A program made the position numbers and the translations under genes. DNA of 64,000 nt from contig NC_083513.1 of assembly GCF_032362555.1 (NCBI RefSeq), positions 9,300,001 through 9,364,000 on the forward strand, written 5' to 3'. Of this stretch, positions 11,285 through 41,000 are shown piece after piece; position 1 is the stretch's first letter; the number at the start of each line of letters is the position of its first letter. This DNA is from Amyelois transitella (lineage: Eukaryota; Arthropoda; Insecta; Lepidoptera; Pyralidae). The notes under the pieces were generated by a model. It made no database searches. It was not told the DNA's origin and saw only the letters and a list, made by a program, of their open reading frames with translations.

Positions 11285-11525
11285 ATATACGGGACAAATA
11301 ACGTAGATTGAGTTAGTGTCGAAGTAGGTTCGAGACTTGTGTTACGAAATACTAACTCAACGATACTATATTTTATAATAAATACTTATATTTATAGATT
11401 AACATCAAAGACCCAGGCCAATCAGAAAAAGTTCTTTTCTCATCATGCCCTGGCCGGGATTCGAACCCGGGACCTCCGATGTCAAAGGCAAGCGTACTAC
11501 CGCTCCGCCACAGAGGCCGTCAAAA
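11285..11525 (-). repeat. tRNA-headed SINE (family C), full copy
   Basis: On the minus strand it starts with 'ggcctctgtggcggagcggt' (box A region), then box B 'gggttcgaatcccggcc'. The body ends in 'ttgagttagtatttcgtaac' and 'tctacgttatttgtcccgta'. The ORF at 11339-11584 is this element. Confidence 0.8.
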
Positions 11526-13821: not shown

Positions 13822-16800
13822 ATGTGGTCTCGCAAGCACTCGGTATGCAGTGCTGTGAGCGGGGCCTCTAAGTGTGACGACGACCTGGTCAATGGGGTAC
13901 AGCTGTACCCCTTCGCAATCGCCTTAAGAGTCAGGGTGCTGCAGGTAATTTTATGAATGACTTCTTTCTTCCTCCTGGCTTTAGTCCCGGTTGCATCCTC
14001 ACCTCTCTGGAGAGGAGCCCGGGGTATGCATTTGACAATGAATCCTAGATTGGGTGAGTCAAGGTTTTTACACGAAGCGACTTCCATCTGACCTCTGCAA
14101 CCTTTGCAGGTAAATCTAACCCGTATTGGATCCATGGTTACACATCCAGTTGCCCGAATGTGCAGGTTTCCTCACGATGTCTTACCGTAAGGTTAGTATA
14201 CAAACTAGTATACATAACTAAATATTCATTGGTTCATGGAGGATGTGTGATTTGAACCTGTGCCTTTCTGCGCATCACGCATTTTTACCAGGCACCTTAC
14301 CAATTCGCCTACCGACGCTCTCAATTATCTTATTTTATAAAAGACTATCACTAGTATTCCTTCTTTCCCTTGACATTAATCCCGGTTACGTCCTCACCTC
14401 TAAAGGGGAGTCCCGAGATGAGCCTAAGACAACAATTATGTATTTGGATATGTCAGTTTTTCATACTACGAAGAAGTGATCTCGCGAGCACTCTGTGAAC
14501 AGTGCTATGAGCATGGCTTCTAAACGTGACGACGACCTGGCTGGAGTGCAGCTGTGAAAGTAAACCCTGGGCCTAAAAACAATGCGGTGGAGCTATAACT
14601 GAGATAACGTTAAGAAGAAAGAGAACTGTCGGATCCGAGCAAGGAGTAATCTCTTAATGGGATTTTCCCCTCGAGATACTGCTGGGAACGTAATGAATCT
14701 TTATACATTTAGTTACCACATTGTACAGCATTCTGAACAATTCACGATGATTTCACCACCATATTTACTTTTGATAATTACCACGTAGTTTTAGTGGAAC
14801 ATACATACATATAGTCACTTCTATGTCCCTTGCGGAATAGCTGTTTGGCTTAGTGATAGAATTGAGACTCATAAAGTGACAGTTTTCTAGCCTGTCGCAT
14901 AAAAGAAGAATCCCAAATTTATAAGCTTTAGTCGCTCCTTACGAAATCCATGGGAAAAAGATGAAGTGGTCCTATTCTTTTTTTCTATTGGTGCCGGGAA
15001 CCACACGGCCCAAAATAAATATTGACACGTCATATAACATAGTATCAATAAAATTATCTTTGCATGTTTTGCGTTTCGCTCTCATCAGTTAAGCTTCGGA
15101 CCTACTATACGATAGGTATGCTAAAATCATTTCTTCAAAACTTACAACAAATTATATAGATCCAATTGCGACACCTATACGAACCTATGAAGACTTATTA
15201 TAGAAGAATTCAATTAAATCCTCTATCATCTCGAAACACTAGGAAGCTGTGAGAACAATTCAGTACCTACCGAACAATGGGCTCTCGTTACAGGTTAAAC
15301 TAATCAATAAATCAGTCCTTTACGAAAGCCCTCTTCCACATTTATCTCGGTCTCCCAGCCCTCCATTCGTCAGAGTTAATTTATATTGTGTTTCAGTAAA
15401 TACAATTAGTACAATTACGTTAATATGAACACAATTTTGTAATAGATTTTAAACTTTCGCATTTCATTGTACTATTTCTAAATGGGATAAGTCCGCCATT
15501 GCAAGTGATTTGTTTCTTTTATAATTATACTATGTACCTACTTATTATTAGTATCTACCCTTATTTTATCTCGAACATTGTAACATGATTCTAAACGTTC
15601 AAGTAACGAAACGTAAAGGTACTTTTTGTACGCGTTTAATACCTATATTATTTATAAATTTTGTGACAATTTCTTATGAATGAACAGAGTTAGTCGATAC
15701 ATTAAAATTTAGGTAATTTTAATTTTTGCTTCAATTATTTTAAATACATAATTTCGGCATTAAGTAAATGATAATTAGGTTAAGTATATTTTTTTTTTGA
15801 TAATATGGATAATATTCTTTGTCGTCACAGTATAAACTTACATATACCTATCGCTGTTAACTTCTAACCTCGAGGTACGCTAAAAATAGCCTACTAGTAA
15901 TACTGTACGTACATTTTGGCAATATATTTTTTGCTGAGAGCACGCGAGCAAGTCAGACGTGTCGCAAGTTTAATTTAAATTCACTAAAAGAGCCACTAGT
16001 CGATTTTGGACCCTAACTTTAAAGTGTATAAACACATATTGGCGAGTAAGTCACGAGTGAAATACAACTAATTACCACTGAGCAACACACCGCATTACCG
16101 GAGTCATCGTCAGTGCCCCGCCCCTCAATCCTCTCGAGCAAGCGAGACAGGCTCCGTGCTGTCTACACCGGACTAATAAGTAAGTGATCTGCAACGACAC
16201 ACTAACACAATGAATGAGCACCGATCACCAACCGGCTGCGGTCACAGTGACAGACTCGGCGGATCTCAACCAAATCTGTCCGAACTTAATCCAAACTATG
16301 ATACCACTCCGATTCGTATCACTCAACGTGTTAAGCGAAAAGTACTCGATGATGATGCCTGGATAAAAACAGAGCTTTCAGATTTAAAAAAACAGGTGTC
16401 TGAAATAATGGTAATATTGAAAGCTACTAGCGTTTCCCAAGCTGAAAATATCAATAAGCTTCATGAAGACGTCACTACTATCAAAACTCATGTAAATAGT
16501 ATTGGTGACACCATCGAAAGTATTAAATTAGATCAGAGTAATACAAAACTAAGACTTAACGAGTTAGAAACAAAAACAGAGAATATTGAAAAGAAAATTG
16601 AGAATTTAGAAACAGATTTAAACCAATTTAGGGAAACCACAACGTTGAGTACTATAACTACAGCTACTGAACCATCTATAAGTTATGAAGAAATTGTAAA
16701 TGAAGTTCACGAGCGACACCAACGCTCTAAAAATATAGTGATATTGGGTATTCCAGAGCCAACTAGCCCAATCAACCGTTTCACTTACAATAAGGTTGAG

Positions 16801-19800
16801 ATTACAAAAATCACAAAATCTATTTATCCAGACTGTCCTGAACCAAATAAAACCTTCCGACTAGGAAAATATAAACCTGGTATAAATCGCCCCATCAAAG
16901 CCTGCTATACATCGGAAAATACCGTAAAAACTATATTACGCAATAAGAGCAATTTACAAATGGACACCATTAAAATATTCTCTGACAGAACGCCCCTGCA
17001 AAAACAGCACTTTCAAAAATTAAAAGAGGAATTGAAAAGTCGGAAAACAGAGGGAGAGACCAATTTAGCCATAAAATATATTAAAGGAGTTCCCAAAATT
17101 ACCCAAACAACGGGAGAGAAGCAAGGAAAAGAGACATCCAAGTCAAAAAACTAGCAGCCCCCTCCAGGGGGAAGATAACACACAAGTTCATCAAAAACTA
17201 TAATGACATAAAAAGTTCTCATAAATCTTTGAAATGCTTATATATAAATGCTTGCAGTCTTGTCAAGAAAGGTAAACTGGATGAACTTAAATGCATAGCT
17301 GCCCAGATAGAACCGCATATAATTGTTGTGACTGAAACATGGATAAAAAATGAAACCGACGTCCAAAAACTCAACATTCCATGCTACACCCACTATAACA
17401 ATTTCAGACAAAATCGCAAAGGAGGCGGTGTTTCAATCTTTGTTCACAACAACTTAAAGCACAGGATGATTGAAGACCATTGTATAGCTGACAACAACCA
17501 CTACCTTTGGATACATCTTGAAAAGCAGTCTCTGGACATCGGTGCTATATACAACCCCAACAAGAAGAACGTTGACAACTTTCTTGAACTATATTCACAA
17601 CAACTGGAAAAAAGGAAAAGAGCTTTGGTTTTTGGGGACTACAATTTTGACTTACTGGTACCTGACAAGGAAACTCGAAAATATAAAGATATTTTAAAAG
17701 AGAACAACTTTACGATAATAAACAAAGTCCACCGGAAGTACTCCACGCGTGTAACAGAATCCACAAACACGATTATTGATCATGTATGCACTAACCTAAA
17801 AGACAACAATTTTAATTTTAGTCTTATTGAATCATCGATGTCCGACCATCGACAAATATACTTAGAAGTTGAAAACCACTATAGTAAACCTGTTCAAAAA
17901 ATTTATTACACAGCAGTAAACTATAAAAAGTTACACGACTCAGCAGAACACAATATAAGGAAAGACGAAAGCGCATATGAAATGTTGGAAGAAAGTATTC
18001 TAAAATGTCTATCTACAAGTAAAGTCACTAAATCTAAGTACCTAAACCCACCACGTCAAGACTGGATTAAAAATGATATTATTCAAGACATCGACAAACG
18101 AAATGAAATTTGGCATAGATACAAAACAAATAAAGAAGACATAAAACTAGAACAGGAATTTAAAGAAGCTAGAGCCAGAGTATATAAGAAAATTCAAACA
18201 ACCAAAAAAACATACTACTTCAAGTTCTTTAAAAATCACATGAGCAAGCCTAAAAAAATGTGGAAAGCCATTCATGAATTAGCTAGTAACAACATCAAAC
18301 ATACAGCAGTACCGGACAAAGTCATCCTGAACTCGAAAATAATAACGGATATGCAAGTAATTTGCGAGAGTTTCAATAGTTATTTTTCTACTGTAGGCTC
18401 AACACTTGCAAGCAAAATCCCAAACAAATACCAAAAAGTTGACCGAAACGATACACAATCACCGAACATAGTTAAAGCGACTGAGCTAACAAGTTTTGTG
18501 CCGGCAACCGTGGACGAAATTATTCAAATAATTAATGACTTAGACCCAAATACTAGTTCAGGCATAGATGGTATCAGCACCAAAATGATCAAATGCATTA
18601 AAAATATAATTGCCATCCCGCTCACCAATAGTATAAACAATTGTTTAAAAATGGGAGTCTTCCCGCAGTCTCTAAAAATTGCCAAAGTAACACCAATTTT
18701 TAAGAACGGTAATAAATCAGATCCGTGCAATTACCGTCCAATTTCAGTCTTACCAGTCATTTCTAAGATTTTTGAAAGAGTGATGTACTCTCGAATAGAG
18801 AAATACTTAAAATCAAAAGATTTTTTGTACAACAAACAATACGGGTTTAGACCAAAATCAAACACACTTTCAGCAACAATAGACCTTGTGACTAAAATAA
18901 AAAATAAAATCGATGAAAAACAAATAGTACTCGGTGTATTCATAGATCTCAAGAAAGCGTTCGATACAATCAGCCACAAACTACTTCTTGCCAAATTGTC
19001 TAATCTCGGTATCACTGGTAAGGCACACGACATATTCAAATCATATTTCCAAAACCGTAGGCAGATAGTGAAAATAGGACAACATCAAAGTACCCCAACT
19101 TTAATGACTTTCGGCATTCCTCAAGGCTCCATTTTGGGGCCTCTTTTATTTCTAATTTATGTCAATGACATAAAAAATTTGGGCCTTAAGGCTGACATAT
19201 CTCTTTATGCAGACGACACTTGCTTATTTTATTATGGCCACTCATGTAAAACTTTAAAATTAAAAGCACAAAGAGATCTTAACAAATTAAACGATTGGTT
19301 TTTGTCGAATCTCCTCACTATTAATACTGAAAAAACTAATTTCGTTATATTTGCTGCAAAAAACAAAAATCTCGACGATATAATAAAACTTAAAATAGAT
19401 AATGATGAACTAAAACAAAAATCTAGCGAAAAATATCTTGGCATTATCTTGGACCATTACCTCGATTTTAAACAACATATACATAAAATTAAGACTAAAT
19501 TGACATCCTTGTCAGGTGCCGTTCGTGCGGTTTCGAACTGTCTTCCACGTAAAATCAAATACATTATATATAATTCATTAATAAAACCACACATAGATTA
19601 CCTAATAGAAATCTGGGGTACAGCCGCAAAATCTAATTTAGAACCACTACAAAGAGCACAAAATAAATTTATTAAAACACTTTTTAACTATGATTATAAT
19701 ACGCCAACCATAAAAATATATACAGACACTAAAATAATGAACATAAACCAGACATATAAGTACTACACATGCACGTTAATCTATAAAATTCTTAATAATA

Positions 19801-22800
19801 AAATACATACTGTTCTAACATTCCAAAAAAAAAGCCAAACCCAAAGAATGAAATTGCGTAATGCAAATCATTTGGTATCTCGCGCCCCGAGGACAAAATT
19901 TGGTTCAAAAAACATCCAGTTTGAAGGTGTGAGAATGTATAACCAACTGCCTATAGAAATAAAAGAAGCAAATTCACTAGGTACTTTTAAAAGAAAATTA
20001 AAATCATATATCTTGGAAAATCAAAATTGAATAAATTGAATAAAGGTATATTTAAAAACAATATTGTAATAAATAAACGTACTTTATTTAGATAAATGAA
20101 GAAAAATAAAAATACTTAATTAAATAAAGTCAAATATATAACATAACACTATAAACATTTATATTAAATTCACAAATAATAAAATAGTAGTAACAACCAA
20201 ATATACATTCTACTATTAACTCGCTACTTATCCGCTAATCGCCTGCGTCTATGATCGCAACCTTAATAAACATCAGCAGCGTAAACGTGTGAAGTACCCT
20301 CACTCCTGCGCTGCGTACCGGTTGCCGGTATTACTTACTACGGCAATCTACCCTACTTATAAAATGGCTTGTAATTTTTGTTTTATTTTCGAAACTTATG
20401 TCAATATCTTTTATTGTTAACTTGCGACTTATATACGTATATGTACTTAGCTCGCCGTCACATTAATTACTGTAAGTAGTTAGTATTATTATTTCTCTGT
20501 AAGTGAATGAAATGTAATTATTCTTTTTGAGAAATAAATAAATCTTTAACCGTAAATCTTTAACCGTATATATTCGGCTGCCTACTAATAAAGATAATAT
20601 AATCTTTAATATTGTAAAAGTAAACAAAGAAATCTTGGTAATCTTTTTTTATTTGTTTTCTTTCGTAACAAAAGTAACAAGGATTTAATTTCATTACTGA
20701 TGGCTATAAAATTAAATCAACAATGAACAAGAAGCTACTAAATTCTGATATTACGATGGTAATTCTTGTATCTTAAATAGAAATGACCACGGAATGTCGA
20801 CATTTGCATATTGAAACAGTCTTTATCCAATTTTGTAAAAAGAATTTTTGCTGTGAGTAAAGTCACGACCAATTTACTTTACTTAGATTTTGCTTAAGTA
20901 AGTAAAAATTCTTACAGTGTATACTTTATTTCACTTTCATCTCAAGATATGTATTAAATTGTACCAAACTAGAGGAATCAACCAAATATTAGGTATATTT
21001 GGTTAAATTATATTATAAATATTATATTTTAAATTCACATACATACCTATGATAAAAAAATATATAGTATTTGGGATCTACAAAATTAGATTATAGGCGA
21101 TGGGCTAGCAACCTGTCACTATTTGAATCGCAATTCCATCATACAGCCTTTTAGTCTTTTCTTGACTGTTGGCTCTGTTTACCCCGCAAGGGATATAAAC
21201 GTGACTTTATATATGTACAAATAGAGGATTAAAAAAATTATGGCAGAAAACAATAATGATATTAACAATAATGATATTAAGTCCATTGGATCATTTACAG
21301 CAAAATTATTCTGCTTAAACTGCACATAATCATAAACGCTTACAGCGGTCTCAATCCAATTTTGTGAGAAGAATCTTTCCTGTGAATAAAGTCACGGTCA
21401 ATTTGCTTCCCTAAGGTCTTTAAGCGCTCAATATGGTGTGTGTAATCATCATTATCATTATCTATCCTTATCTTATCATTCTGTAATTCACATCTTCAGT
21501 TATTAGCTTCTATGGCAAAGGGTCAGGTCAAGAGTACCTACCCGAAACCACCGAGCTTGCATGAAGAGAATTTTGAATATGGATGAAGCGAAGGAAGTGT
21601 GCAGAGATCGTGGCAAGTGGAAAGAGGTAGTCTCTGCCTACCCCGCCGGGAAAGAGGCGTGATTTTATATATGTATGTATGGTGGTTATTAGTTCTTGGG
21701 TCCCCCGATGACATGATTTTTACGTGCGTTCAACATTCATTTGCCAAAGATTGAATAGTCGTTTGCTTTTACCAACCCACGTCATTAATTTTCTTTATGA
21801 GAATGTTTTCATGCCTTTGTTGTTAATATTTTTATCTTATAAACCCCATCAACACATATATCCTATTCCGTTTTGCCTGACACCACACGGGAACAACATC
21901 AAATGAGTGTTTTATACATAAATACTATAAAAATGTTATCTGCATTGTGGTTACCTTCCTCTGTGGACTTGGGAACTTAGGATTCTTCTTTTAGTCGATG
22001 GGTTAATAACCTGTTGAAATATGAATCTAGATTTTTTCATCAAGCCAAAAAGCTCAACGTGGCCTATCAGTCTTTTCTACCTCACAAGCTGACTGCTGAC
22101 AAGACTGCTTGCTCTGTCTACCCCACAAGAGATATAGACTTTACTATTTGTATGTAAGTATATTGTAAAATATATTTTGTTTTGTTCAGTACAAAAATAC
22201 GTAAGCACTTATTTTGATAATATCTGGCACAGAGCAGACAAGGCACAATCTTTTTCTAGAAATTTCCTCGAAAGTATAGCTCCGCGCAAAAGTTAGTCAA
22301 AGAATGTAGTGATAAGGAAATGATAGTTAATATTATTCTAGATCGTGTGCGGGATCGCTGGACTAGTCGTCGGAGCAGTCGGCTGGCTGGAGGAGAGGCA
22401 GAAGCTGGAACTGGGGTTGGGAGTTCCAGCTGGAGCCATCACGGTGCTTGCTGCAGGTAGCTATTTCGACTCATAATTTATAGAGAATACACATTATTAC
22501 AACAATATAGGATAGGATAATAACCCTCGCGGGGTAGACAGAGACAATCTTGAAAAGACTGAAAGTACATGTTCAGCTGTATGGCTTAATGATGGAATTG
22601 AGATTCAAATAGTGACAGGTTGCTAGCCCATCACCTAAAATAGTAAATAATTTAATGTAATTTCCTCGAAGTCCCGATAAATAGCTTGGCGCAAGCGCCA
22701 AGGGTAATAAAACTATAGTAAACTGTATGAAAATTCAATTAATTAGCATGGCTTGTTCATTCGAAGCGGACTATGTTTTGCATGCGAGCGACACCCATGT

Positions 22801-35002: not shown

Positions 35003-38000
35003 ATGCTTAACAAACTGGATTACTTCGGAGACAATACTTCGCTGCATGGAGTTAAACATGCGTTCTCCCTCTCACATATACCATTTTTTAAAAAGTAAGT
35101 ACTTGCAGTACAATTATTTATGGCTTGGATCATTTTATTTCCATAATAAATACGGGACGAATTACTCCGACTGAGTTAACGTCGAAGTTAGTTAGAAACT
35201 TGTGTTTAACTATACGATACTATATAAACACACGATAAACACTTAGATAAACATACGAGTATAAGTCCCAGGCTAATTAGAAAAAAAATCATTTCTCATC
35301 ATGCCTTGGTCGAGATCCGAACATGGGACCTCCAATTTTACAGACAAGCACTCTACCACTGCATAACATAGGCCGTCCATACGTTCTTATTAAGTGGAAG
35401 CCTGAACAAACTGACTTTTTTCTAGATTATTCTGGATTCTGGTCTTATCAGCAAGTGGATTCGGCGCTTCAGTGATACTAAGGTCACTAATGGCACTATA
35501 TTCTGGTGAAGCTGTGTCCTATGTATTGGACACCAATTATATCGACTTCGAGACGCCTTTCCCGGCCGTGACAGTATGCCAGCAAGTGGACTCGGGTCAA
35601 GCCATGAGTTATATAATAAAGTAAGTAGGAATAAAATTTAGTTATCTTAATTTATAAAAAGGACTGATTAACAGATTTCATGTGGTTTCCGACCATTTAG
35701 AATGGAACCATGTCTTTCTCTTTTTATGGATGTCGTAAAATGCGACTAAGTCATATGTTTATAAACTTGGAGTTGCACTTATAGACACCATCGGCTAGCT
35801 ACCTGTCACTATTTGAATCTCAATGCTATCATGAAGCCATACAGCTGAACGTGGCCTTTCAGTCTTTTCAAGACTGCTGGCTCTGTCTATATATGTATGT
35901 ATGTATTGACAGACACACCAACACACATCCAAATCGCTGGGCTAGAATTGACAATTAAGCATGTTTCATTCTAAATTAGAAATCAAGCATCCTCTATTCT
36001 ATATTAGAAAACTGGCCTCGTCGCCGCTCGCGTGAAATGTAAAATCTTGCTAATTTTAGTTCCTGCGGGAAGTTCTGGAAATCCTCTCTAAATGTACCCC
36101 TAAATTAAAGACATTATATGAAATGGTAGGAACGTGCCTTATTCAAATGTAGAACTTTCTCAGAAGACATTTTTAAACTACCAAATCTAGAGGCTTTAAG
36201 TTAAAGATACTACATACTGACGTCTTGAGCTTTCAAGACTTGACTTCACTTGACATTATTATCATGAAAACAGGAACGGTCTACCCAAAAGCCTGGTAAC
36301 ATTCTACAAGGAGGTCAGTTTTTATTACCTCAAATACTGCAAAACTTGGTGCGACTGTAAGATGAATGTCACCTGTATGGTGGACTTCTTAGATGCTGTG
36401 GAACAGATAAGGTCTCCTTGTAAAGACATCATGACTGACTGCTGGTTTAAAGGAGAGCATTTTCCATGTTGTGACCGGTAAGTTCCAAGAGTCTGAAACG
36501 GTTTATCAACAATCGATTCCACCTATGAATTTCACCCACATACGTTTCGCCAACATCCTGACATTAGTTAAGCCGTTGGTGAAATATTTGTGGGTGAAAC
36601 GTTCAGGGAGTAAAGATTCTGTGGGTCGACCGTTCATGGATCAATCAAGTGTTGGTAAGCAGTTAAAGACTCAAGTTTATACCTGACATCAAAAACATTC
36701 TAGACCGTATAAACTGTTCTACTTCTTGGCGTAAATCCGGTAAAATTTACTACCTCTTTGAAGTGGAGGGGTGCGCGTTCTGACCATGAGCCAGGATTGG
36801 ATTTACACGAAGCGAATCCCATCTCTTCTCGACTAACTAATACTGGATCATAGTAAAAACTGCACTAGATGAATGTGTCTTAAGTGCCTTTTACGGCATC
36901 CATGAAAAAGAGCTGCAGTGGTCCTCATTCTAAAGAACCGGGAACCTTACGGCTCTCCGGACCGAAGAAATTACGCCAAATCTTTACACAGGCATCAGCG
37001 CGGATAATTTACTTCAAAGAATTGCTAATAAGAGAAAGAACGACTATGATTTAAAGATCGACATATGATCGTCCAGAAATTTGAAGCTTAATGTTTTTTA
37101 ACTTTCAACTTATCAGGTTTCTCCCATTGGAAACCGAGTACGGTCTATGTTTCACGTTCAATTCAAGATTGCACGGCCATGTTTTGAAGGCAAGCCGACG
37201 AGATGGACCCTTACTGCCAGCCCTTGTGTTCAACGTCAAAGAAGAAATTGGGGTGAGTTGGCCATCTATTCCTCGGGAACATCTGCTTCGTCCTGGCGTT
37301 AATTGCGATTAAATTCTCATCTCTTTGGAGTGGAGACCGGGGTGTGACCTTTTGACTATATTTCTGGATTGGGTAAGTCAGGTTTTTACATGAAGCGATA
37401 CCTGTTTAATCTCCGCAACCTGTACAAGGGAACCAAACCCATATTAGATAACTAGCTTTTGCCCGCGGCTTCGCCTGCGTTAATTTCGCTTCCATAAAAA
37501 GATTGCTTAGATTAAGAGCCTTGCATTGACATAAACTAATATTATGCAAAAAATAGATGTGCCTACGTGAGTGCGTGTTTGAGGATGCTATTCAATCATG
37601 CAAATTCAACTGGATAGATTTTGATGAAACTTACGTACACGGGAAGAATAATGCCTGGAATAGAACATAATTTATTTTTCCTACAAAAGCAAAGTCCCGG
37701 GGGCGCAGCTGTTAAAAAACGAATAAATTCTAAAGACAAAAAAAGGTAAGTATAATAATGGAAAGTTAAAGTATCTCTTTGTATACAACATTTGCTGTCT
37801 TGCCCATTGGAGACATCACAAATAAACTGTCACAGCTGGTGACCCGTGAGCAAGCGACGTAGAGCTGTCCGTGTGAGAAGCAATTCGTCCTGAGGTCGAC
37901 TCCGGCTGCTCCAAGACTTTGCGATTTGTTAATTGTCATCGCGAAACATATAGCCACTGGAAACTGTACACGCTTAAATTGAAATGGAAAGTTGTTGGGA

Positions 38001-41000
38001 ATGAGGGGAATGCGCGGTATAAAAACAATTTCACCAGCTGCACAACCAGTAAGAATTTTAGCTTCTATAATATTGTTATGAAGCGACCCCACTTTAAGGC
38101 GAGTCCCATTACAACGTTTCGGCGGCGTTAAGTTGCGTAGCAACATAATTGGAATGCCTACTTTTAGTGCAATTGTATGCGCGGACAGTCCAGATGCCGA
38201 AAGTGAATTAAGGAACTCTACCGGATAAGTTGTAGTATCGGTACTATTTAAAACTGTATTTATGGATTGGTATATAATTTTCATATTACGTGTTAGACTT
38301 AATTTCCTAACCTGAGGCCAGAGTATGGATCGTTTGAGACATGCGCTTACTTCATCAGCTCTAGTACCTCGGCTTATTACGGGTAGAGTCTGGCGGAAAT
38401 CACCACAAAATAATACAGTGGTACCACCCATAATGCGATTCCCTGTTATTTTCTCCAAATAAGTAAATGTCTTAACCATGGAAACTAAACCAATGAAAAA
38501 AGAATTTTTAATTAATTAAAAAATTTGCCAGCGGCTACAATCGCGTTATTTCTTAAATTCTCATGTGGCGCCATCTCGTATCGGGTGGTCAAAAAATAAA
38601 TATCTAAAACACGGGAACTAAATCAATGGTGAAACGGTAAGTACTGACGTTGCTATATGTGTGTTATTCCTGCTAATTTTGAGGAACATGGCAACCGTCG
38701 CCGATGCGGGGTGCGTCAAACTACCTACATAAAAAAATCTTCTCATACATAAAAAAAATATTCTTAAAGATGTGGTGAAACAGTAAGTACTGGCGGAACT
38801 AAAATTACTTAATTAAAACTTAATTAATTTAAAAATTTTCCGGCGGCTACAATCGTGTTATTTCTTAAATTCTCATGAGGCGCCATCTCGTATCGGGTGG
38901 TCAAAAAATAAATACCTAAACCACGGGAACTAAATCAATAAACAAAGCATAATGAATTAAATCAATAAAATGCTATTTTTAATCATCATCATCATCATCA
39001 TCATCATCCATATCCATACATATAATAAAACTGTAACTCAACTTTGTCTGTACATTGAAGATATTTAAGAAAAAAAATTATAAGGGGTCTTTTTAGGGTC
39101 AATAGAAGCCAAAACAATTTTTTTTAGAATTTTTGTCTGTCTGTCTGTCCGTCTGTCTGTCTGTATGTTTGTACGCGCATCACGCAAAATCTACCGAACG
39201 GATCTGAACGAAATTCGGCACAGATATAGTTAGTTACCTGGATTAGAATATAGGCTACTTTTTATCCTGAAATTCTATCCCAAGGGGATGAAATAGGGGG
39301 TGCAAGTTTGTATGGAACTTCGTCATTTTTGATTTGAATCAATATAAAAAGCTATAAATTATTATACATACAGACAGACAGACGGACAGACAGACAGACA
39401 AAAATTCTAAAAAAAATTGTTTTGGCTTCTATTGACCCTAAAAAGACCCCTTATAATTTTTTTTCTTAAATATCTTCAATGTACAGACAAAGTTGAGTTA
39501 CAGTTTTATTATATGTATGGATATGGATGGTAAAATCTGCACTTAATCAATGTGCCTATTCTCTAGGTCACTTCAAGCAAGCTCTTGTGTTATCCCAAGA
39601 TGAAATAAATCATTATTATTATATCATCAAGAATGCAGGATCTGTTTACCCCGCAAGGAATATAGACGTGATTATTCATGTAATCAATAAATGAATGGAG
39701 TGATATGTTCTTTTTATGCGATGGTTGTATGGAACAGACATCGACAAAAAAAAAAAGGGGAACATTTTTATTCTAGCTGCAACGCGCTGTCTAGTGGTAT
39801 AATAATCTTAGGCTCGTTATATAGAAACGCTTCCAAGCATTTGACACCTGTCTATGGCGACTGAGGTAGATCCGCCGTATCAAGAATTTTTTTTTATGTT
39901 TTTAGTTAAGAGTTCACTCTCCAGAAGACATGGTCTCAGTCGCGATGGAGAACCCACTGGGCAAGCCGATGTCGGTGCCCCTCATCACTGATCTGGAAAT
40001 CATCTTGAAGGTAGACATTTAGTTTCTTCACATCAGTGTAAGTGCGAGCTCTACTCGATCTCGAATCGAAATCGAATTTGTATGGAATTGGAACATTAGT
40101 GTCGTTGATTAAATCACATACAAATTTGCGTTTACTTACTCGACTCATTCGATTGAGTAAAACTCGTACTAACTCCTCTTAAACATATTATTTATACAAG
40201 TAAATTTGCGTGAAATGTATTGTCTGCCCCTATTTGATATACTTCTATTGCATTTTTATAAATCAATAGGCTATTACACTCTTTTTTGAAAACTGTTTTA
40301 AATCAATCCTGAGACTGTGTTATACCTATAGAATTTTTATTAAAATTTTTTGAAGCCGAAAAGTGCTCTAAAAACGATTTATTATTTATGATTTTGTATT
40401 TTCGCGCGAAAACGCCATCCGCCATGCTGGTTTGACTCGTGACGTCATACTTTTAGTAAACAATACAAAAAATAGGTTATGTTGGATTGGTTGTGTAATA
40501 ATTTACCTATTATAATTGTGTATTGTAAGAGAATGTTTAATACAATAAATACTTACATCGCTGTTTTAACATTTCTTAACTCAGCAGAACAGAAATCGGG
40601 ATTGGACGCAAAAAATTTCGCCACCATCAACGTATTAATCCTCGGTAGATTTATATTGTCTGCTTTCACAAAACCGTCTTCCATGATTCTATTAAATTAT
40701 TAAAGAGTAAAAACCCAAAAACGTGATAGAAATTTTAAAGTTTCAAAATAAACAGAGCCTGACATCATCAATATGTTTTCGATTCGATATTTGTTTACTA
40801 AAAGTATGACGTCACGTCAGTACCCAACATGGCGGATAGCGTTTTCGACTTTTGAAGAACAGATTAAAAAAGAGGATTTTTTAAATTGAATTATAAAATC
40901 CATATTGCACTTTTATGAATAATGATCGATGTTTTTCTTTTATTTTTTACAAAATCTATAACATACGTGCATTTTTATATTTTTTTTTACATGGTGTAAA

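Follow-up and report, generated by a model that had tools for sequence, protein, structure and literature searches.

How does a LINE whose second open reading frame has no start codon of its own nearby come to translate that frame? The question is raised by a locus in the moth Amyelois transitella (contig NC_083513.1, positions 9,300,001 to 9,364,000), and these 64,000 nucleotides, the whole stretch of DNA that was analysed, are called the window here. A first-pass annotation had proposed that ORF1 and ORF2 of an intact LINE in the window are joined by a complete −1 frameshift cassette, consisting of a slippery heptamer, a six-base spacer and a six-pair stem, and that the element makes an ORF1-ORF2 fusion. 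The features on which the argument turns are as follows (window positions):

15931..20555, plus strand: full-length LINE (non-LTR retrotransposon), its bounds being the stretch common with a full-length copy on contig C3
15931..16209, plus strand: 5′ untranslated leader without ATG (no ATG starts in 15900-16209)
16210..17154, plus strand: ORF1, 314 aa, with coiled coil, RRM and C-terminal domain (L1-type, type II ORF1) in a predicted model
17085..20030, plus strand: open stretch of ORF2 in the −1 frame (predicted endonuclease and reverse transcriptase)
17144..17152, plus strand: extended nonamer C AAAAAAC T
17145..17151, plus strand: slippery heptamer A AAA AAC, read in the zero frame of ORF1 and phased X XXY YYZ
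17152..17154, plus strand: ORF1 stop codon TAG
17158..17171, plus strand: stem-loop CCCCC-UCCA-GGGGG, six bases behind the heptamer, a possible local stimulator
17247..17249, plus strand: codon for N55 of the open stretch, the conserved Asn of the endonuclease; it precedes the first ORF2-frame ATG
17466..17468, plus strand: earliest ATG of the ORF2 frame (codon 128, counted over the open stretch)
20539..20568, plus strand: 3′ tail, TAAATCTTTAACCG x 2.1

A search of the moth's own genome (327 Mb in 33 contigs) finds the junction of this element at four places, namely in the window and on contigs C3, C15 and C24. The three other copies are 99.7-99.9% identical to the window copy; the one on C3 is full length (99.9% identical over 15931-20555), and those on C15 and C24 are 5′-truncated, with truncation points at 16463 and 16349. 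ORF1 and ORF2 are both open in both full-length copies, and the first unit of the 3′ tail and part of the next are common to the three other copies, after which the sequences diverge. The window element is a young, intact LINE and by resemblance it is of the CR1/L2 kind; its close database relatives that carry names are all Lepidoptera (Arctia, Pieris, Vanessa and Loxostege). Elsewhere in the window, on the minus strand, we observed a tRNA-Val-like sequence at 11446-11517, perhaps a SINE head, and at 37766-38515 a 249-codon open frame that by eye resembles a Pif1-type helicase and is perhaps a Helitron remnant.

In its predicted model (mean pLDDT 80.7, pTM 0.45) ORF1 is a long coiled coil followed by RRM-like and C-terminal domains, and the best matches of this model among solved structures are to human LINE-1 ORF1p (2ykp, E 1.5e-6, and 2yko, E 1.9e-6); the ORF1 sequence profile alone returned coiled-coil matches only, including LINE-1 ORF1p at E 0.021. 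ORF2 is predicted to comprise an APE-type endonuclease and a reverse transcriptase, as its profile matches human LINE-1 ORF2p (E 6.3e-42) and a Pfam scan finds PF00078 at E 6.7e-32 together with PF03372 and PF14529, both barely over their cut-offs. Across 31 aligned sequences the endonuclease residue N55, whose counterpart in L1-type endonucleases is catalytic, is nearly invariant, and E84 is invariant.

The reading frames at the junction are arranged as the first-pass annotation had described them. The stop-to-stop span of ORF1 (16180-17154) and the open stretch of ORF2 overlap by 70 bases, with ORF2 in the −1 frame relative to ORF1, and ORF1 ends in TCA AAA AAC TAG, which puts the heptamer in the zero frame directly before the stop. 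From the codon frequencies of this ORF1 the chance of finding A AAA AAC as its last codons is ∼0.0006. The downstream frame is open through the heptamer and has no start of its own nearby, again as annotated. Its first ATG, at 17466, lies downstream of both N55 and E84, so that a product started there would lack both residues, and eight out-of-frame ATGs lie between the ORF1 stop and that codon.

Copies of the element itself are too young to reveal whether the heptamer is conserved. The comparison across genomic LINE copies that the annotation had proposed also took in more distant ones. A protein search of the own genome returned at least 79 ORF1-like places, 61 of which (30 returned as loci and 31 fetched) were examined at the DNA level; the remaining 18 comprise 17 that stop short of the ORF1 end and one on contig C2 that reaches it (residues 232-300). 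At 57 of the 61 places an in-frame A AAA AAC is present at the ORF1 end, the later of two in-frame candidates being taken in L047, L058 and L067. The same test shifted upstream by 150, 300, 450 and 600 bases succeeds at 2, 0, 2 and 1 of 61 places; at the unshifted position, each of the two other phases scores 3 of 61. Relatives lacking the in-frame heptamer, named in the annotation as evidence that would speak against it, are confined to the other four places: L029, with an insertion considered below; L050, a copy of the L035 family that still has the heptamer, though an upstream indel has put it in another frame than the matched part; L070, from the L040 family, which is truncated short of the site; and L074, with 76% similarity to L065, which stands for the one mutated family and reads A AAA ATC (Lys-Ile).

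Single-linkage clustering at 80% over 100 nt sorts the 57 places into 22 junction families, all of which carry the heptamer by construction because they were built from heptamer-bearing places only; with L074 as a 23rd family, the site is held in at least one copy by 22 of 23. When one representative is taken from each, the heptamer is preceded by C in 20 of the 22 families and followed by T in 21, the other flanking positions being mixed. A stop codon stands directly behind Lys-Asn in 12 families and not in the other 10, the heptamer being present regardless. The −1 frame was scored as open into the endonuclease motif in 17 families, 13 of which have no ATG before the conserved Asn and four of which have one only at least 32 codons behind the heptamer. 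The five scored as not open are L028, L063 and L071, which are interrupted, L051, whose frame is open with an endonuclease motif that the search pattern missed, and L044, which runs for 90 codons to a stop with its motif unrecognised. All of these DNA counts come from one genome, and since the families, like the database sequences below, are related to each other, they are not independent trials. Within this set, seven near-identical copies (L031-L034, L046, L062 and L069) keep the heptamer and diverge from the ORF2-bearing L043 ∼90 bases behind it (three of the seven were compared position by position), their −1 frame meeting a TGA where L043 has CGA; they look like an ORF1-only derivative family.

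Database proteins, a record at the protein level whose underlying codons are unseen, give a similar picture. Of 30 ORF1 sequences, the one from the window included, all but three (P0124, P0130 and P0138) extend to the conserved PKI motif, and 18 of these 27 end exactly in Lys-Asn, compared with a mean of 0.67 and a maximum of 6 in 20000 rounds of shuffled tails. The form [SPTAQ]KN, which the heptamer could encode, occurs in 25 of the 27 tails, with S as the preceding residue in 10, P in 9, A in 3, T in 2 and Q in 1. The exceptions are P0125 (PKKS) and P0136, whose PLN would fit U UUA AAC. Positions −6 to −2 of the tails are variable, and the ORF1-core tree has a length of 17.66 substitutions per site; as a control, none of 108 ORF2 proteins ends in Lys-Asn. 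A predicted start behind the conserved Asn is found in 29 among the best 63 of 108 ORF2 matches, some of which are perhaps cut by contig ends or gene models. Joined ORF1-ORF2 gene models are also in the database (P0041, P0054 and others); we did not count them as evidence because they leave out the junction, in what look like predicted introns. P0136 and P0137 are more distant ORF1 proteins with Cys-rich N-termini that end in PLN and QKN; U UUA AAC and A AAA AAC could underlie these ends, in which case the shift site may predate the group.

Viral contigs searched with ORF2, the ORF2 alignment and the ORF1 alignment yielded no relatives, a phage search gave one distant record only, and a plasmid search gave 25 records with no close relative, the 10 listed being mostly group II intron reverse transcriptases. 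A search of genome contigs gave 8 loci, and in the four longest matches (L001-L004, 28-30% identity) the heptamer is absent from the ORF1 end. Two of these, L001 (∼380-470) and L002 (∼255-345), are distant LINE-like contigs binned as bacterial genomes, in which a TAG closes the upstream frame and ORF2 continues without a change of frame, an arrangement that looks like stop-codon readthrough.

A 3′ stimulator is usual for efficient −1 frameshifting in eukaryotes, and the stem-loop behind the heptamer was the remaining part of the proposed cassette. Its six-base spacer is correct; the stem itself has five G-C pairs (17158-17162 with 17167-17171) and a UCCA tetraloop, at −9.9 kcal/mol, and not the six pairs claimed, as the sixth, U-A, would leave a two-base loop. 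Five perfect all-GC 5-bp stems with loops of 3-8 occur in the 64 kb, one being the stem behind the heptamer, and of 1500 overlapping 40-nt segments along the element, 15 fold no worse than the segment there. Measured against shuffled sequences the structure signal is modest and depends on the segment chosen (z = −2.14 for 46 nt, −1.64 for 51 nt, −1.96 for 141 nt and −1.05 for 99 nt). When the 60 bases behind the spacer are folded for each of the 22 families the mean z is −0.16, and z falls below −1.5 in five only: the window element, L035, L044, L068 and L072. The stem is thus at most a local helper, one that may assist in the window element and is no general requirement, and we rejected it as a general component of the signal. 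In this respect the annotation's complete cassette fails, since the stem belongs to the window element and not to the group; its core inference of a fusion made by −1 frameshifting is strongly supported by the heptamer at 57 of 61 places.

Termination-reinitiation at a UAAUG overlap of stop and start, the route taken by the silkworm LINE SART1, would likewise place ORF2 in the −1 register that we observe. Such reinitiation is described for non-LTR elements (PMC5902531), and predicted starts near the junction occur in 6 of the 63 ORF2 relatives (P0012, P0016, P0020, P0033, P0037 and P0060). However, the window element reads TAGCAG and not TAATG, and an ORF2-frame ATG within 12 nt of the ORF1 stop is found at none of the 57 genomic junctions, so UAAUG reinitiation is unavailable there and was rejected for these junctions; the AUG-started ORF2 upstream of the endonuclease that the annotation had listed as contrary evidence is, over this distance, missing from all of them. 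We consider this route hardly credible. Reinitiation behind the ORF1 stop without any AUG, as proposed for mammalian L1, with the A-rich heptamer kept for another reason, is unlikely as well. It agrees with reports that L1 ORF2 translation is unconventional and depends on ORF1 translation (PMC2881922, PMC5972666), and it is compatible with evidence that consists, as here, of sequence, but it leaves unexplained both the exact in-phase heptamer at 57 of 61 places and its presence in the 10 families in which ORF1 terminates farther downstream.

An RNA polymerase or reverse transcriptase that slipped on the A run could likewise fuse the frames, by adding one more A in some RNAs or copies, and L029 (C32:11210853-11211728) is what such an event might leave behind: it matches L071 with 99.2% identity over 241 nt, carries an extra A in the run, and reads from ORF1 into the ORF2 frame without a break, as one open frame of 1164 codons. 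Against this, the run is short, with six A in 20 of the 22 families and seven in two (L030 and L071), and it has been kept in one codon phase rather than lengthened, which makes slippage of this kind very improbable. The least believable of the alternatives is that the ORF1 protein requires a C-terminal Lys-Asn, of which the heptamer would be a by-product. While the protein tails that end exactly in Lys-Asn are what this would predict, none of the 61 genomic sites encodes Lys-Asn by other codons, and in the ORF1 bodies AAC accounts for only 107 of 331 Asn codons (AAA for 406 of 524 Lys codons and NCA for 308 of 865 NCN codons); the constraint is thus on the nucleotides. The preceding residue moreover varies mainly among S, P, T and A, whose codons have nothing in common beyond the form NCN, and Lys-Asn is internal in 10 of the 22 families.

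The best explanation is that −1 frameshifting at A AAA AAC would yield an ORF1-ORF2 fusion, to which we assign a probability of about 0.88. In such a mechanism most ribosomes would terminate at the ORF1 stop and release ORF1 protein, and on a minority the two tRNAs would slip back by one base on A AAA AAC, reading then continuing in the −1 frame. The product, if translated as drawn, would be a single chain of 314 ORF1 residues and 959 residues of the ORF2 frame. From the sequence we infer that slippage occurs, what its rate may be and that the fusion is the working enzyme. In keeping with such slippage, a review counts A_AAA_AAC and U_UUA_AAC with the heptamers on which mammalian ribosomes shift most readily (PMC5009743). 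A Pfam scan finds no protease domain in either ORF and inspection by eye finds no 2A-like sequence at the junction, so the fusion protein that frameshifting predicts would probably stay whole and uncut.

That the heptamer is kept in many distantly related copies suggests frameshifting as the way in which a group of LINEs produces reverse transcriptase. We lean slightly towards a broader version of this idea, in which a LINE clade (at least 22 junction families in this genome and relatives in other Lepidoptera) has fixed C AAAAAAC U, produces its endonuclease-reverse transcriptase only as a frameshift fusion and does so with no stimulatory RNA structure that is conserved. If this is true, the ORF1 part would anchor the enzyme both to the trimer of ORF1 and to the RNA that encodes it, which amounts to a built-in cis preference. 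Since the families have no 3′ structure in common, it may be asked what else, apart from C AAAAAAC U, would drive the shift. How LINE ORF2 is expressed, and in what ratio to ORF1, is a long-open question that this junction makes testable with a short reporter.

Among known non-LTR elements, HeT-A, the telomeric element of Drosophila, has no reverse transcriptase of its own, and its shift therefore lies within gag and not between ORF1 and ORF2. A frameshifting event is needed for this gag (PMC5009743), and the Dictyostelium elements TRE5-A and TRE3-A require a −1 frameshift for ORF2 translation (PMC5911963). The latter are LINEs of an amoeba, and the accessible description of them contains no conserved heptamer, a distinction that is made by description and not by sequence. 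Frameshifting in LINEs has thus been stated before (HeT-A, TRE), and what appears to be new is a retroviral-type heptamer conserved across a group; the literature searched, mostly without subscription papers and seen in part, yielded no description of a LINE with a conserved slippery heptamer. Reinitiation has been described for LINEs (PMC5902531, PMC5972666, PMC2881922), and for the LINEs of Paramecium the options given are +1 frameshifting, reinitiation or readthrough (PMC5405496). SART1 resembles the window element as a two-ORF lepidopteran LINE with coupled ORF2 expression and differs in using UAAUG reinitiation with a downstream structure (PMC5902531, PMC5972666); the window element has no ORF2-frame AUG near the stop. 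LINEs of the CR1/L2 lineage with a type II ORF1 share with it an ORF1 of coiled coil, RRM and C-terminal domain and an ORF2 of APE endonuclease and reverse transcriptase (PMC4120745); we found no statement on frameshifting for them in the accessible part of that paper, from whose main text the word "overlap" is absent.

The closest parallel to the proposed mechanism is the −1 frameshifting of retroviruses and LTR elements (X XXY YYZ), which shares with the LINEs here the heptamer A AAA AAC, its phase and the downstream −1 frame and, in the window element, also a six-base spacer and a stem-loop. Unlike in retroviral and LTR frameshifting, the host here is a non-LTR element with no protease domain seen by the Pfam scan, and most of the related families have no evident 3′ structure. 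Retroviruses and LTR elements have been described as reaching Pol by frameshifting, in contrast to non-LTR elements, which reach ORF2 by reinitiation (PMC5902531). A retroviral-type shift site kept in a group of LINEs, in frame at 57 of 61 places, would break this contrast.
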